This document shows positions 28,771-37,431 of a stretch of 64,000 bases of DNA, one piece after another. The number at the start of each line of letters is the position of its first letter. Positions within the stretch are counted from its first letter, which is position 1. The translations under genes and the position numbers were made by a program. The stretch is from Armatimonadota bacterium (GTDB taxonomy: Bacteria > Armatimonadota > Chthonomonadetes > Chthonomonadales > CAJBBX01), in assembly GCA_026392115.1 (NCBI GenBank), contig JAPLCQ010000098.1, positions 1 to 64,000 on the forward strand, given 5' to 3'. Under the pieces are notes generated by a model. The model was not told where the DNA came from and made no database searches. It saw only the letters and a program-made list of their open reading frames with translations.

Positions 28771-29079
28771 TTGCTGGAGCCCTGCGTGTCCCTAGCCTCA
28801 TGCGTCCGGCCCGCCGAGGGCATCCTCGTCACCGTGGCCCAGGACGAAGCCGTGATCCTCGATTCGAACTCCAACCACTACTACGGGCTCAACAAGTCCG
28901 GGACGCGGATGTGGCAGGCGGCCGCGGAGGCCGACACGCTGGCGGCGGCCCTGGACCGGCTGGCCGGCGTCTACTCGGTGGAGCGCGAGCGCCTCCAGAC
29001 CGGGCTGCTGGGGCTGATCTCGGACCTCGTGAGCAAGGGCCTCATGGCGCTGCAGCCGTCGCCCCCGCCGACCGCCTGA
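28771..29079 (+). CDS. PqqD-family protein (RiPP recognition element, lasso B1-like)
   Basis: A 102-residue winged-helix protein of the PqqD family, whose members bind the leader of a ribosomally made peptide and present it to modifying enzymes. The pattern is VRPAEGILVTVAQDEAVILD, then HYYGLNKSGTRMW, and a C-terminal GLISDLVSKGLM. The start chosen is TTG 28771 with GGAGG 5 bases upstream; ATG 28717 and GTG 28753 are in frame but would extend past the family's usual N-terminus. It is followed 8 bases later by a lasso B2-type protease and then an asparagine-synthase-like gene, which points to a B1 role. Confidence 0.8.
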   Translation: MLEPCVSLASCVRPAEGILVTVAQDEAVILDSNSNHYYGLNKSGTRMWQAAAEADTLAAALDRLAGVYSVERERLQTGLLGLISDLVSKGLMALQPSPPPTA

Positions 29080-29087
29080 GCGTGACC

Positions 29088-29555
29088 ATGCACCACCCGG
29101 CCGAGCCGGTAGGGAGGGCGTCCGGTCTCCTTGGAGCGCTGGTTCGCGACCGAGGCTTGCTGCCGCGCGCGTGGCGCCTCCTGGGCCGTTACCAGCGCGA
29201 GCTCGGCTGCGACATGCCCTTGAGCGCCGAGGCCGTCTGGGAGGCCCCCGAGGGCGCGTCCGGCTACTCCGGCGAGGAGCAGCGGCGGCGCGCGGGCGAG
29301 CTTTTCCGGCTGGTCTTCTGGATGGCCCGCCTCCAGTCGCCGCGCCCGCTCTGCCTGCCTCGCGCCCTGACGCTCCTGCGCCTGCTGGAGGAGGATGGCG
29401 TACACGCGTGCCTCCGCATCGGGGTGAACCGGGCAGCCGGGGCGCCGCCGCGCTTCCACGCCTGGGTCGAGGTCGGCGGCGCGCCGGTGGGTGAACGGCC
29501 GGAGGGCCTCGCGGGCTTCCAGCCGCTGCGTCCCGCCGCGCCCGGAGGGGTCTGA
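29088..29555 (+). CDS. Lasso-peptide B2-type leader peptidase (transglutaminase-like)
   Basis: A 155-residue protein of the McjB C-terminal family, cysteine proteases that remove the leader of lasso-peptide precursors. The catalytic Cys lies in RPLCLPRALTLLRLLEEDG, followed by RIGVN and the His in FHAWVEVGGAPV. The third triad residue is not obvious, since GERPEG stands where an Asp is usual. It lies between the PqqD-like gene and the cyclase-like gene in the order B1-B2-C. ATG 29088 is preceded by a weak GAG; GTG 29082 is in frame. Confidence 0.8.
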   Translation: MHHPAEPVGRASGLLGALVRDRGLLPRAWRLLGRYQRELGCDMPLSAEAVWEAPEGASGYSGEEQRRRAGELFRLVFWMARLQSPRPLCLPRALTLLRLLEEDGVHACLRIGVNRAAGAPPRFHAWVEVGGAPVGERPEGLAGFQPLRPAAPGGV

Positions 29556-29558
29556 GGC

Positions 29559-31385
29559 ATGGCCCGCATCTGCGGCTTCGTGGAGCTCGGCCTGCGGTCG
29601 CCGGACCCGGCTCTGGCGCTTGAGATGGTGCGCGGCATGGCGCTGCCGGACGGCGCGCCGCCGGCCGCGCTGATCTGCGGCTCGGCCGTCGTCTGCCGGG
29701 CCTCGGCCCATCCGGCCGGCGGCGAGGCCATCGTCGAGGGAGCGAATGGCTGCGTCCTCGTGGCCGATGCCGTTCTGGACAACCGTCCCGAGCTTCTCGC
29801 CCGGTTGCGCGCCGCCGCTCCGCACCTCTCGTCGGCGTCCACGGACGAGCAGGTCCTGCTGGCGGCCTATCTTCACTGGGGCGACGACTTTGTCCGGCGC
29901 CTGCTGGGCGACTTCGCGGTGGCCGTCCACGACCCGTCTCGGGGCCTGACGCTCCTCGCCCGCGACCCCATGGGCATGCGGCCCCTGTACTACGGCGGCG
30001 GCACGCACGTGGCCCTCTTCGCCTCCGAGGCGGCCTCCATGCTGCGCCACCCGGCGGTGCGTCCGGCCCTGGACCTGTCCGAGGCCGCCGACTTCCTGGT
30101 GGGCCGCTGCGGGGGGCGAACCACGCTTTTCCGCGACCTTCGCCCAGTGCCGCCGGGAGGCCTGGTGATCCTGCGGGAGGAGGGTGATCCCGAGCGCATC
30201 GCGCCGTCGCGGGCCGATCTCCGGCCGCCGCCGGGCGGCCCCGCCGGCCTCGCCGACGCCTTCCGCCGCCTGCTGGAGGAGGCGGTCGCGGAGCGAATCC
30301 CCTCGGGCGGCAAGGCTGCCGTCCTTGTCAGCGGCGGACTCGACTCGTCATCGATCGCGGTGGTGGCCCACGGCCTCGCCCGCAAAGGGCAGGCGACCGC
30401 GCCCGCCGGCATCCAGAACGTGTTCCGCGGCCTGCCCGCCTGCGACGAGCGCGCCTGGACCCAACCGCTGGTGGACATGGGCCTATCGCTTCAGCATGTC
30501 GAGGCTTGTGATCAGCTCCTGCCCGGTTCGCCGGAGTTGGAGCAGGGCCTGGAAGGCCCGTGCCTCGGCTGGGAGGGCATCGCCCGGGCGCAGTGCGAGC
30601 ATGTGCTGCGCTGCGGCGCCGAAGTGGTTCTGACAGGCGACTGCGCGGCGCATCACTGGGTCGCCGCCCGCGACGCCGCCGCCCGCGCCCTGGTCGAGGG
30701 TCGCCTCGGCGCCCTGTCATGGCAGGTGCGGGACCTACCCAGCCTTGCCGGCCTCCTGGGGCCGGGCCTGGTGGAGCCGCTGATGCACGACCTTCGGCTG
30801 GCAGTCGGACGGGCCGGCGTCTCGTTGCCCTCGTGGCTGGACCGGGGCTTCGCCGAGCAGTCGGGCCTCATTGATCGGCTTCGGGAGGACCAGCGCCCCC
30901 GCGTGATCGGCCGCCGACCCGAGCACGTTGCCGGTCTGACGGGCTCCGTGGGGCGCGCGATCACCTGGCGCAACCGTCAGTTCTCGCGCCTGGGCGTCGA
31001 CCTCCGGTGCCCGCTCATGGATGTCCGGTTGGTCGACTTCCTCCACTCGCTGCCGGTCACGGATGTGCATGCGGCATGCGAGGACCGCGTCATCCTCCGC
31101 CGCGCCATGGCGGGACTGCTGCCCGACAGCCTCCGCACGCGCACGGCCAAGGCCGTCTTCCTTCCCTACATCGAGCATGGCCTGCGCGTGCACGGCGACG
31201 CCATGCTGGAAGCCTTCCGTGCGCCCCTGCTGGCCGACCTGGGCGCGGTGGACGCGCGGCGCCTCACGGCGGCCGCGGAGGCCTTCCTGGCCGGCTCGCG
31301 CAAGGGCTACGACCTCTGGATGCCCCTGACGCTGGAGCGCTGGCTGCGCCGCCACGGCGACGACCTGCGCCACATCACGCTGTAG
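29559..31385 (+). CDS. Asparagine-synthase-like lasso-peptide cyclase (C protein)
   Basis: A 608-residue AsnB-type protein. The N-terminal glutaminase-like domain begins MARICGFVEL, with the Cys at position 5 rather than directly after Met, so glutaminase activity is doubtful; this is expected of lasso cyclases, which need no ammonia. DEQVLLAAYLHWGDDF and LLGDFAVAVHD follow. The C-terminal ATP-pyrophosphatase domain has the PP-loop LVSGGLDSSSIAVV at about 255-268. The likely reaction is ATP-dependent activation of an Asp/Glu side chain to form a macrolactam. It is the third gene of the B1-B2-C cassette and overlaps the convergent metallo-hydrolase gene by 11 bases. Confidence 0.8.
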   Translation: MARICGFVELGLRSPDPALALEMVRGMALPDGAPPAALICGSAVVCRASAHPAGGEAIVEGANGCVLVADAVLDNRPELLARLRAAAPHLSSASTDEQVLLAAYLHWGDDFVRRLLGDFAVAVHDPSRGLTLLARDPMGMRPLYYGGGTHVALFASEAASMLRHPAVRPALDLSEAADFLVGRCGGRTTLFRDLRPVPPGGLVILREEGDPERIAPSRADLRPPPGGPAGLADAFRRLLEEAVAERIPSGGKAAVLVSGGLDSSSIAVVAHGLARKGQATAPAGIQNVFRGLPACDERAWTQPLVDMGLSLQHVEACDQLLPGSPELEQGLEGPCLGWEGIARAQCEHVLRCGAEVVLTGDCAAHHWVAARDAAARALVEGRLGALSWQVRDLPSLAGLLGPGLVEPLMHDLRLAVGRAGVSLPSWLDRGFAEQSGLIDRLREDQRPRVIGRRPEHVAGLTGSVGRAITWRNRQFSRLGVDLRCPLMDVRLVDFLHSLPVTDVHAACEDRVILRRAMAGLLPDSLRTRTAKAVFLPYIEHGLRVHGDAMLEAFRAPLLADLGAVDARRLTAAAEAFLAGSRKGYDLWMPLTLERWLRRHGDDLRHITL

Positions 31386-34093: not shown

Positions 34094-34861
34094 CTATTTG
34101 CCGGGGGCCGGGGCCGCGGGCTTGTCCGAGGCCTTCTCGGTCTCCACGCGGGTGATCGTGTACTTGAGCGGTCCGTCGCCGAGCATGGGGATGACCAGGC
34201 CGGTGATGGCGCCGTCGGAGCGGACCAGCCGGGTGGTCTCTTCGCTCACAAAGCTCTTGCCCTCGACCTTCAGCTTCATGTCGCCCTGCGGACCGTTGAC
34301 GAGCCCTTCGGCCACGGTCTTGATCTCGATGCAGTCTACGGGCAGCTTGTCGCCCTTCTTGGCGCGGCCGACGAGGGTCAGTACGCCGGCCATCTTGCCC
34401 TTGCCGTTCTTACCTCCGGGCACCTCGAACTTGGCCTCCTCGCCGATCTTCAGCGGCTTGGTGGGCATCTGGCTCTGCCGGGCCATGAGCAGAATCTGGC
34501 CCATGGGGTTTCCGGTGGTCTCCTGCCGGGTGACCTTGCCGTCCTTGTCCAGCTCGATCGCGATCTCGCCGCTGCCCGCCGGCACCGGGAACTCCTGCCC
34601 GCCGAACTTGCCGACGGCGCTCTCCACGGTCATTCCCAGCACGGTGGCCCCGTCGGCCTTGATCTCCTTGACCTTGTCGACGGTCACAAAGGTCATCTCG
34701 ATGGGGCTGTTGTCGGCGCTCGCGACCTGAATCACCGTCTTGTATCGGTCGGTGTCGCCTACCTTGTAGGCCCTGCGTAGGTTGAACGTGTCCTGGGCCG
34801 AAGCCGCCGATACGGCCGCTACGGCAATCAGCGCACACGCCAGTCGGCTCATTCGAAGCAT
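34094..34861 (-). CDS. Secreted protein of unknown function
   Basis: A 255-residue exported protein with signal peptide MLRMSRLACALIAVAAVSAASAQ. The mature part is beta-rich and Lys-rich (YKVGDTDRYKTVIQVASAD, EIAIELDKDGKVTRQETTG, GKNGKGKMAGVLTLVGRAKK), like periplasmic proteins of the DUF6263 kind, but I do not assign a family. GGAG lies 10 bases before ATG 34861; longer in-frame starts would bury the signal peptide. It is followed by a hairpin terminator. The region upstream holds two putative small RNAs read the other way. Confidence 0.7.
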   Translation of the reverse strand: MLRMSRLACALIAVAAVSAASAQDTFNLRRAYKVGDTDRYKTVIQVASADNSPIEMTFVTVDKVKEIKADGATVLGMTVESAVGKFGGQEFPVPAGSGEIAIELDKDGKVTRQETTGNPMGQILLMARQSQMPTKPLKIGEEAKFEVPGGKNGKGKMAGVLTLVGRAKKGDKLPVDCIEIKTVAEGLVNGPQGDMKLKVEGKSFVSEETTRLVRSDGAITGLVIPMLGDGPLKYTITRVETEKASDKPAAPAPGK

Positions 34862-35074
34862 CCGAGAGTAGCTCCTTCGTTTCGGCAGGGCGGCCCATGG
34901 CTCGCTTCGCCGCCGGTTGATGATCAGTAAGACGCAGCGATCGGCCTCAGGGTGTCCGTTAACGGCCATATCCGTCCCGATGGACGCCGGATGCGTACCA
35001 ATGCGCGTGGCTGGCCGCGTCGTCCGGGCGAAAGCGCCTAGCTTGCCGGCCCGCCGTCGGGATACAGTATTCGT
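34862..35074. other. Intergenic region without visible gene
   Basis: About 210 bases holding the leader of the minus-strand secreted gene and, at its right end, the promoter-like TTGCCG...TACAGTATT of the first putative small RNA. No coding sequence is supported here. Confidence 0.4.
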
Positions 35075-35174
35075 GAACATGTGAGGCAGTGGTGTGGGGT
35101 AACCCGCATTACAGCCAACTGGCTCTCTCAAGCCCGGCTCTGGAATGGTGTGCCGCCTTCCAGGGCCTTTTTTT
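35075..35174 (+). ncRNA. Putative small RNA, copy 1
   Basis: About 100 nucleotides from GAACATGTGAGGCAG to a T7 run. It contains a GGGTAACCC hairpin, a second hairpin GGCT-CTCTCA-AGCC with a C/U-rich loop, and a 10-bp terminator stem GGCTCTGGAA/TTCCAGGGCC followed by seven T. Upstream are TTGCCG and TACAGTATT. A homologous unit lies at 35338-35438. No coding frame follows on this strand, so a free-standing RNA is more likely than a leader. It matches no RNA family I know. Confidence 0.6.
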
Positions 35175-35302
35175 GCCTCAGGCGTGCCGCACCCCTCGCC
35201 GCGTCGGCTCTCGTTACTGCTCCATGCCCCGTATCCTGGTTCGGGTCAGACCAGATGAATACCAGAGCATCGGGGTTCTGCGCCATCTTGGGCCGCAAGG
35301 TC

Positions 35303-35331
35303 TTGCGTCGTCGGCGAGTCCGGGATATATT
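35303..35331 (+). promoter_or_regulatory. Promoter of small RNA copy 2
   Basis: TTGCGT, a 17-base spacer and TATATT, positioned so that transcription would begin about 7 bases later, at the conserved GAACATGTGAGG segment. Confidence 0.65.
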
Positions 35332-35337
35332 ATCTGC

Positions 35338-35438
35338 GAACATGTGAGGCAGAGGTGCGGGGCATCCCCTGTACCGCTACCTATGGCTCTCTCAAGCCCG
35401 GCCCTGGTATGGTGTGCCGCCTGCCAGGGCCTTTTTTT
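35338..35438 (+). ncRNA. Putative small RNA, copy 2
   Basis: About 101 nucleotides, homologous to copy 1. It begins with the same GAACATGTGAGGCAG and has a GGGG-CAT-CCCC hairpin in place of GGGTAACCC, the identical GGCT-CTCTCA-AGCC hairpin, and a terminator stem GGCCCTGG/CCAGGGCC with seven T. A T-to-C change in the terminator stem (a T-G pair in copy 1 becomes C-G) keeps the pairing. The C/U-rich loop could pair with GGAGAG-like ribosome sites (inference). Its terminator lies just past the stop of the convergent barrel gene at 35446. Confidence 0.65.
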
Positions 35439-35445
35439 GTCTGGC

Positions 35446-36342
35446 CTACAGCCGCACCCGGCACTGCATCCACCAGACCCCCTTGCCGTTCACCACTCCG
35501 GCGCCGGGCTCCACCGTCAGCGTCTTGCTCGCGCCGATGATCACGCCGCCCGTGGCGCTCCGCAGGTTGGTGTTGTCACCGCTGGCGTCGTTGCCGTAAA
35601 TCCACGAGAGATAGGGCGCGTACCGGGTCCGCGTGTCGAACTCCGCGGTCACGGCGGCGAACCGGAAGCTGCCCTGGCTCGACATCGCCTCCAGGGCCTC
35701 GCCCACGAGCGTGCAGCGCCCGAGGCGCCGGGTTGCGTCGGCGCCGATGGCCAGGTCATGAACGCTGCCGAACAGCAGGCCGCGCCCGGCTCCAATGGAG
35801 AGACCCGCCGCGCTGCCGTTCTCCCACTTCTTGCCCAGCCGCGCGTAGGCGTTGCCGCGGCGGACGCCGTCATCGTAGGCGGCGGCGCTGCTCAGGCTGA
35901 GGCCGCCAACGGTCGTATCTGCCGCCACGCCCCACTTCGCCTCGTACTCCCACGCCTGCGCGGCGAAGGGCACATAGCGCTTGCCCACCCAGACGCGTCC
36001 ATCGTGGGGTAACCGACCCGACCAATAGGCTTCCTCCGGCTGTTGGCAGCACCGATCGGCGCCGTTTTGGATGTCGCCGAGACCCAGGGAGACCCGGGCG
36101 CTGGAGCCGTCGGCCATGTTCCAGTCGAGCCCGGCCTTGGAGGGGTAGGCGACCATGGCGCCGGCCCACTGGCCGTCAATGTGCCTGCGCACGGCGCCCG
36201 TCATGTTGCTCAGGCCCCAGTAGGCATCGAGGTGGAACACGGGGCCCATCGGCGGCGTTTCCGGCTCTGGTCCGGCGACTGCCGCCAGGGGTGCGAGGCC
36301 CACGAACGTCGCGACCGCAAGGGGCAGCATCCGTCTGCTCAT
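35446..36342 (-). CDS. Secreted beta-barrel-like protein, paralogue 1
   Basis: A 298-residue exported protein with signal peptide MSRRMLPLAVATFVGLAPLAAVAG, then PETPPMGPVFHLDAYWGLSNM and repeated beta-strands (GRVWVGKRYVPFAAQAWEYE, GLSIGAGRGLLFGSVHDL), ending in WWMQCRVRL. It looks like an outer-membrane or surface barrel of unknown function. AAGGAG lies 8 bases before ATG 36342. The neighbouring gene at 36535 is a close paralogue in the same orientation, so the pair arose by tandem duplication. A hairpin follows both stops. Confidence 0.75.
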   Translation of the reverse strand: MSRRMLPLAVATFVGLAPLAAVAGPEPETPPMGPVFHLDAYWGLSNMTGAVRRHIDGQWAGAMVAYPSKAGLDWNMADGSSARVSLGLGDIQNGADRCCQQPEEAYWSGRLPHDGRVWVGKRYVPFAAQAWEYEAKWGVAADTTVGGLSLSSAAAYDDGVRRGNAYARLGKKWENGSAAGLSIGAGRGLLFGSVHDLAIGADATRRLGRCTLVGEALEAMSSQGSFRFAAVTAEFDTRTRYAPYLSWIYGNDASGDNTNLRSATGGVIIGASKTLTVEPGAGVVNGKGVWWMQCRVRL

Positions 36343-36534: not shown

Positions 36535-37431
36535 CTACAGCCGTACGCGGCCCTGAAGCCACCAGACCCCCTTGCCGTTCACTACTCCGGCGCCGGGTTC
36601 CACCGTCAGCGTCTTGCTCGCGCCGATGATGACGCCGCCGATCGCGCTCCGCAGGTTGGTGTTGTCCTCGCTGTTGTCGTGCGAGTAGAGCCACGAGACA
36701 TACGGCGTGTACCGGGTGCATGTGTCAAACTCCGCAGAGAGGGACGCGAAACGGAAGCCGCCCTTGCTCGACATCGCCTCCATGGCCTCGCCCACGAGCT
36801 TGCACCGTCCCAGGCGCCGCGTGGCATCCGCGGCGATCGCCAGGTCGTGCGCGCTGCCGAACAGCAGTCCGCGCCCGGCTCCGACGGAGATGCCCGCCGC
36901 GCTGCCGTTCTCCCACTGCTTGCCCAGCCGGGTGTAGGCGTTGCCGCGTCGGGTCCGCTCGTCGAACGCCGCGGTGCTGCTCAGGCTGAGATCACCGACG
37001 CGCGTATCGGCCGCCACGCCCCATTTCGCCTCGTACTCCCAGGCCTGCGCGGCGAAGGGCACGTACCGCTTGCCGACCCAGACGCGCCCGTCGTTGGCGA
37101 GCTTGCCGGACCAGTACGCCTCGTTCGGCTGGTGGAAGACATGGGCGCTGCCGTTGTGCATGTCGCCGAGCCCCACGGTGACGCGGGCGTTGGATCCGTC
37201 CGCCATGTTCCAGTCGAGGCCGGCGTATGAGGGGTAGCTCACCATGGCTCCGGCCCACTGACCGTCGATATGGCGGCGCAGCGAGCCGGTCATGTTGCTG
37301 AGGCCCCAGTAGGCATCCAGGAGGAAGACGGGGCCCATCGGCGGCGTTTTTGGCTCTTGTTCGGCCGCGGTCGCCAGGGGCGCAAGGCCCAGGAGGGTCG
37401 CGGCAACCAGGGACAGCATGGATCGGCTCAT
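36535..37431 (-). CDS. Secreted beta-barrel-like protein, paralogue 2
   Basis: A 298-residue exported protein closely similar along its whole length to paralogue 1: signal peptide MSRSMLSLVAATLLGLAPLA, KTPPMGPVFLLDAYWGLSNM, GRVWVGKRYVPFAAQAWEYE, and the C-terminus WWLQGRVRL. Function unknown. ATG 37431 has AAGGAG at 8 bases, in the same leader context as paralogue 1, which supports this start over an in-frame ATG at 37473. It is divergent from the hybrid cluster protein gene. Confidence 0.75.
   Translation of the reverse strand: MSRSMLSLVAATLLGLAPLATAAEQEPKTPPMGPVFLLDAYWGLSNMTGSLRRHIDGQWAGAMVSYPSYAGLDWNMADGSNARVTVGLGDMHNGSAHVFHQPNEAYWSGKLANDGRVWVGKRYVPFAAQAWEYEAKWGVAADTRVGDLSLSSTAAFDERTRRGNAYTRLGKQWENGSAAGISVGAGRGLLFGSAHDLAIAADATRRLGRCKLVGEAMEAMSSKGGFRFASLSAEFDTCTRYTPYVSWLYSHDNSEDNTNLRSAIGGVIIGASKTLTVEPGAGVVNGKGVWWLQGRVRL

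Follow-up and report, generated by a model that had tools for sequence, protein, structure and literature searches.

Two homologous units of about 100 nucleotides follow each other in the 64,000-nucleotide stretch of Armatimonadota DNA analyzed here (the window; contig JAPLCQ010000098.1), between a divergent gene for a secreted-type protein and a convergent gene for an exported-type protein. A sequence-only reading had described them as two promoter-RNA-terminator units with a C/U-rich loop suited to pairing with ribosome sites. The locus raises two questions: whether the units are genes for RNAs, and what such RNAs would do.

The tandem units and their conserved structure

As judged by a DNA search, units 1 and 2 (Table 1) are 85% identical over 104 nt (E=6e-26), which excludes chance likeness. 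Direct reading agrees with the sequence-only description: both units begin with the same 15 bases, GAACATGTGAGGCAG, contain the identical GGCT-CTCTCA-AGCC hairpin and close with a terminator carrying seven T, and one terminator stem pair is T-G in unit 1 and C-G in unit 2. In the 5.7 Mb of the genome, the 14-mer of the hairpin 2 loop has three occurrences, each inside a copy of the RNA, and its reversed control is absent. Folding of the two units beats all 200 shuffles, with z values of -4.4 and -3.7. A simple consensus scanner reported neither promoter nor terminator at either unit, because its rules ask for 9/12 promoter matches and pass over terminator stems that are interrupted by an internal loop.

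Table 1. Positions of the RNA units, their elements and the flanking genes in the window
Feature	Position	Strand	Basis or remark
Divergent gene, secreted-type protein, family not recognised	34094..34861	-	gene calls, Pfam, orthologue search
Upstream box of unit 1, CCGGATGCGTACCAA	34987..35001	+	2 mismatches to CCAGATRNRTACCAG; centre about -81
-10 box of unit 1, TACAGT	35063..35068	+	6 nt before RNA start; -35 weak
Small RNA unit 1 (copy A1)	35075..35174	+	about 100 nt; homology, folding, alignment, covariance model
Invariant 5' leader of unit 1, GAACAUGUGAGG	35075..35086	+	first bases unpaired in 8/8 copies
Hairpin 1 of unit 1	35085..35116	+	sequence variable, pairing kept
Hairpin 2 of unit 1, GGCU-CUCUCA-AGCC	35121..35134	+	read in sequence, motif count, fold
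Terminator hairpin of unit 1, invariant GGUGUGCCGCC apex, then U7	35136..35174	+	sequence, alignment, fold
Upstream box of unit 2, CCAGATGAATACCAG	35251..35265	+	centre -80
Promoter of unit 2, TTGCGT-17-TATATT	35303..35331	+	6 nt before RNA start
Small RNA unit 2 (copy A2)	35338..35438	+	about 101 nt; homology, folding, alignment, covariance model
Hairpin 1 of unit 2	35347..35382	+	predicted fold
Hairpin 2 of unit 2, GGCU-CUCUCA-AGCC	35385..35398	+	sequence, motif count, fold
Terminator of unit 2, with U7	35400..35438	+	sequence, fold
Convergent gene, exported-type protein, no Pfam match	35446..36342	-	stop codon starts 8 nt after the seven T of unit 2

A third copy lies on another contig of the same genome (C65:5215-5326). 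Among 60 relatives, the RNA was found only in G001 and G002, the two that share the genus of our species. Named records, the MAGs CAISJD01 and CAJBBX01, show this genus to be uncultured Chthonomonas of the Armatimonadota; from isolate names, we infer a freshwater origin. This gives eight copies in three species (3 in our genome, 3 in G001 and 2 in G002), all from draft genomes. A covariance model (R1) built from these eight sequences was run over 291 genomes of the phylum and recovered the eight copies at 98-121 bits, the next match scoring 26 bits. The matches at or below 26 bits in these 291 genomes were read and contain none of the motifs of the family; many fall in apparent genes, and a few coincide with terminators of no relation to it. 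Relaxing the filters in a search of 33 near genomes added nothing to the eight copies. Apart from the copies in the Chthonomonas MAGs with named records, a 17-mer scan of the genome collection returned only some 30 chance places, which score at most 20 bits with the covariance model. Viral contigs gave no match, and homologues of the divergent gene in other genera have no RNA at the same place. Homologues with conserved pairing in relatives, on which the sequence-only reading had made its proposal depend, were thus recovered, and the family is so far known from three draft genomes in one genus of uncultured bacteria.

Alignment of the copies separates fixed from variable parts. The 12-nt leader is the same in all eight copies, and the exact 12-mer is present only at the copies themselves; the terminator apex is the same throughout, and UGGCUCUCUCAAGCCCGG is shared by all copies except one with CUUUC, so that the loop reads CUCUCA in 7/8 copies and CUUUCA in the remaining one. 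Every terminator carries 6-8 T. Identity between copies is 100% in the leader, 94-100% in the hairpin 2 region and 39-71% in the upstream flank, and hairpin 1 retains its pairing at identities of 34-91%, as the sequence-only reading had observed for two copies. Ensemble folding of all eight copies leaves the CUCUCA loop entirely, and the leader for the most part, unpaired. The contrast between a variable hairpin 1 and an unchanging leader and loop points to the parts worth mutating.

Selection on RNA structure, proposed earlier from two copies, is supported by all eight: standard pairs occupy 98.2% of pair cells in the RNAalifold structure, and six pairs are altered on both sides and still paired, where slid structures yield 0-1. 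In a shuffle control, each covariation measure was reached by 0-1 of 500 shuffles; as the sequences are only eight, all of them related, and also supplied the structure, these controls are supportive rather than conclusive. The covariation supports the predicted hairpin 1 and terminator; the pairing of hairpin 2 is predicted only, because hairpin 2 never varies. Protein coding was considered and rejected, since the leader-to-loop offsets (38, 38, 39, 39, 40, 44, 44 and 45 nt) fall in all three frames and a frame is not kept. Overall, it is very probable that the eight copies are genes for RNAs of about 100 nt.

Promoters, upstream box and genomic neighbourhood

The promoter-like boxes noted in the sequence-only reading (Table 1) belong to a general pattern. 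In 8/8 copies, a spacing of exactly 6 nt separates a -10-like hexamer (TATATT, TATAGT, TATGAT, TATCAT or TACAGT) from the invariant 5' end, which puts the predicted start at the G of GAACAUG. The copies occupy two kinds of locus: type A, the locus in the window, with five copies, tandem in two species and single in the third; and type B, with one copy per species and another gene, of about 1000 aa, in the divergent position. The -35 boxes of type B are TTG-type, at 18 nt. Those of type A are mostly weak, but its five copies share the upstream box CCAGATRNRTACCAG, located 61 bp from the -10 box in unit 1 and 60 bp in the other four. This box accompanies the RNA even where a divergent gene is not adjacent, as in the second copies of the tandems, and is lacking in type B; elsewhere, as a regulon motif, it occurs only at control level. 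We consider it a likely activator site and, because it is kept at a fixed distance in type A and absent from type B, propose that siblings with the same seed probably respond to different signals.

On the plus strand, neither unit leads into a gene, as had been stated. Orthologues of the divergent gene, 92% and 88% identical, adjoin the type A copies in the two other species. The convergent gene is the first of two adjacent homologous genes (35446-36342 and 36535-37431) for exported proteins of about 298 aa; a Pfam search of both gave no match, and their C-termini, viewed by eye, are perhaps those of outer-membrane barrels. In G001, an apparent broken copy of the convergent gene lies between the tandem RNA copies (L013:8464-8975), which suggests that RNA and gene were duplicated together there. 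Elsewhere in the window, two small genes and, after them, an asparagine-synthase-like gene (29559-31385; the whole spanning 28771-31385) have, by eye, the look of a lasso-peptide-type cluster.

Hfq, candidate targets and possible modes of action

Hfq is encoded in the genome (98 bits against a cut-off of 27). The RNA has a U-tail and, judged from its sequence, lacks the A/U-rich stretch before the terminator that would form an Hfq site. We surveyed ribosome sites in 317 genes called in 464 kb of the genome. The main Shine-Dalgarno sequence is GGAGG (95/317), which fits CUCUC poorly; GAGAG is found in 28/317 Shine-Dalgarno regions (9%), against 5/317 just inside genes. Pairing of the loop with ribosome sites was slightly above that of shuffled loops, with z of -1.8 for the 10-nt core (30 shuffles) and -1.2 for the 14-mer. 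For the proposed targeting of ribosome sites by the CUCUCUC loop there is this slight excess, but long complementarity is not enriched, as the complement of the hairpin 2 14-mer, with two mismatches, occurs genome-wide at control level, and no target conserved in all three species was found. Such pairing is plausible but weakly supported. A preference for exported-protein genes was not significant.

For the leader, exact complements occur only at the RNA copies, with no enrichment beyond them, and near matches lie mostly in coding sequence. The pattern TGAGAGAG-N-ATG exceeds its reversed control (15/2, 11/1 and 7/2), but it resembles a Shine-Dalgarno sequence; among start sites of clear genes, a single one with this pattern, that of a pyrE-like gene, is common to two species. 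Two conserved stretches were observed alongside. One, shared by the three genomes (L188, L189 and L193, position 1500), is an open frame that contains VNMGEGPPMVDPHLFAAP and matches 11/12 of the leader complement. The other looks non-coding (1425-1700 in each of L133, L112 and L111; contigs C135 of our genome, C39 of G001 and C67 of G002), and combines strong hairpins with an invariant CGCTCACGTGAGAGAG that is complementary over 8 nt to CUCUCUCA of the RNA. It has no match in Rfam and is possibly a structured leader, a non-coding RNA or a sponge.

Based on these observations, we propose, with a probability of roughly 0.6, that both units belong, as sibling genes, to a single family of regulatory RNAs of about 100 nt, each with its own putative sigma-70-type promoter and intrinsic terminator, whose products would be loaded with Hfq and carry seeds for ribosome sites of mRNAs. 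The RNA is predicted to fold into hairpin 1, a small hairpin presenting CUCUCA and the terminator. Its U-tail would most likely load Hfq, and (i) the unpaired leader, (ii) the CUCUCA loop or both would act as seeds on purine-rich mRNA stretches at or near the ribosome site and thereby lower translation. Trans-acting base pairing as such we hold to be rather probable, because of the architecture, Hfq and precedent rather than a target.

Other roles were weighed against this model. The RNA could be a decoy that sequesters a protein, as CsrB/RsmZ do for CsrA, with the leader, loop and terminator apex as binding sites; that three separate unpaired or apical elements are so strongly invariant fits such a role, and RNAs of this kind are often multi-copy (CsrB and RsmX/Y/Z as cited in PMC4132741). 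However, the repeated GGA of such decoys is missing, no loop in any of the eight copies having even one, so the RNA is not of the CsrA type and the binding protein would have no candidate, which makes a decoy unlikely. We regard as unlikely to the same degree a pseudoknot in which UGAGG of the leader pairs with UCUCA of the loop in the same molecule, leaving the loop no free seed, and targets would be reached through rearrangement or another site. Each of the eight copies is predicted to form the leader-loop duplex, at -4.4 kcal/mol in seven of them and at -2.5 in the CUUUCA copy, where G-U can keep the pairing, but its energy is weak and both sides are nearly invariant, so covariation gives no test. 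Still less probable is that the RNA forms one arm of an RNA-RNA circuit with the same three invariant elements as contacts, the partner being the conserved GUGAGAGAG stretch of the three genomes as sponge or structured leader; Armatimonadota would then have evolved, on their own, a circuit of the CrfA-SisA type.

A role in cis, as attenuator or leader or by antisense control of the convergent gene, is suggested by the 8 nt between the end of unit 2 and the stop codon of that gene and by type A neighbours that are the same in all three species. Against it, no gene follows units 1 and 2 on their strand, and the downstream neighbours of type B differ (one species has a convergent gene, the two others a codirectional one at a distance of about 0.3-0.5 kb), with leader and loop unchanged; nor would control by antisense pairing keep loop and structure conserved, and we consider a role in cis very improbable. 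Least probable of all is a mobile or repeated DNA element instead of an RNA gene. There are indeed several copies per genome, two of them in tandem, but they number merely 2-3 per genome at corresponding places in three species, have a promoter at fixed spacing and match no viral contig, and their double changes keep pairing, a covariation that contradicts this explanation.

Relation to known sibling small RNAs

None of the families of Rfam 15 scored above its gathering threshold, the best reaching 19.7 bits where 80 are required, and the literature searched yielded no study of small RNAs in Armatimonadota. The Chthonomonas RNA nevertheless has the traits of sibling small RNAs, a class reviewed for tandem arrangements in PMC4211561: at least two homologous intergenic RNA genes per genome (3, 3 and 2), a conserved structure with a conserved short candidate seed and, as far as the DNA itself tells, an own promoter with fixed -10 box and an intrinsic terminator in 8/8 copies. 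Closest in design are NmsRA and NmsRB of Neisseria, tandem siblings of about 70% identity, each with its own promoter and terminator, which form three stem-loops with a UC-rich loop in the second and, like the Chthonomonas RNA, lack an A/U-rich stretch before the terminator (PMC5362039). The anti-Shine-Dalgarno motif in their seeds is UCC, and the segment separating stem-loops 1 and 2 has it too (PMC5362039), whereas our loop is CUCUCA; they belong to another phylum, and Rfam gives no sequence relation. SisA-D of Caulobacter (alpha-r8 family) are likewise several homologous RNAs with a shared short pyrimidine-rich seed, an Hfq context and promoters unrelated among siblings, but they are dispersed rather than in tandem and have their seed UUUCCUCCCU in a single-stranded stretch and not in a hairpin loop (PMC12559287). 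LhrC1-5 of Listeria are multi-copy, 111-114 nt long and use CU-rich motifs on ribosome sites, with three UCCC motifs per RNA and almost identical copies (PMC4132741), in contrast to the one CUCUCA loop and freely varying hairpin 1 described here. The UCC, UCCC and UUUCCUCCCU or CCUCC-type motifs of NmsR, LhrC and alpha-r8 are absent from the unpaired parts of all eight copies.

By this comparison, the RNA appears to resemble sibling small RNAs in its workings and is not a member of the NmsR, LhrC or alpha-r8 families. The covariance model is a ready search tool for it. A tandem sibling RNA beside Hfq in Armatimonadota would carry over to this phylum what has been known from Proteobacteria and Firmicutes. 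The copies described here very probably represent a new, genus-restricted family of sibling small RNAs, most likely acting in trans.
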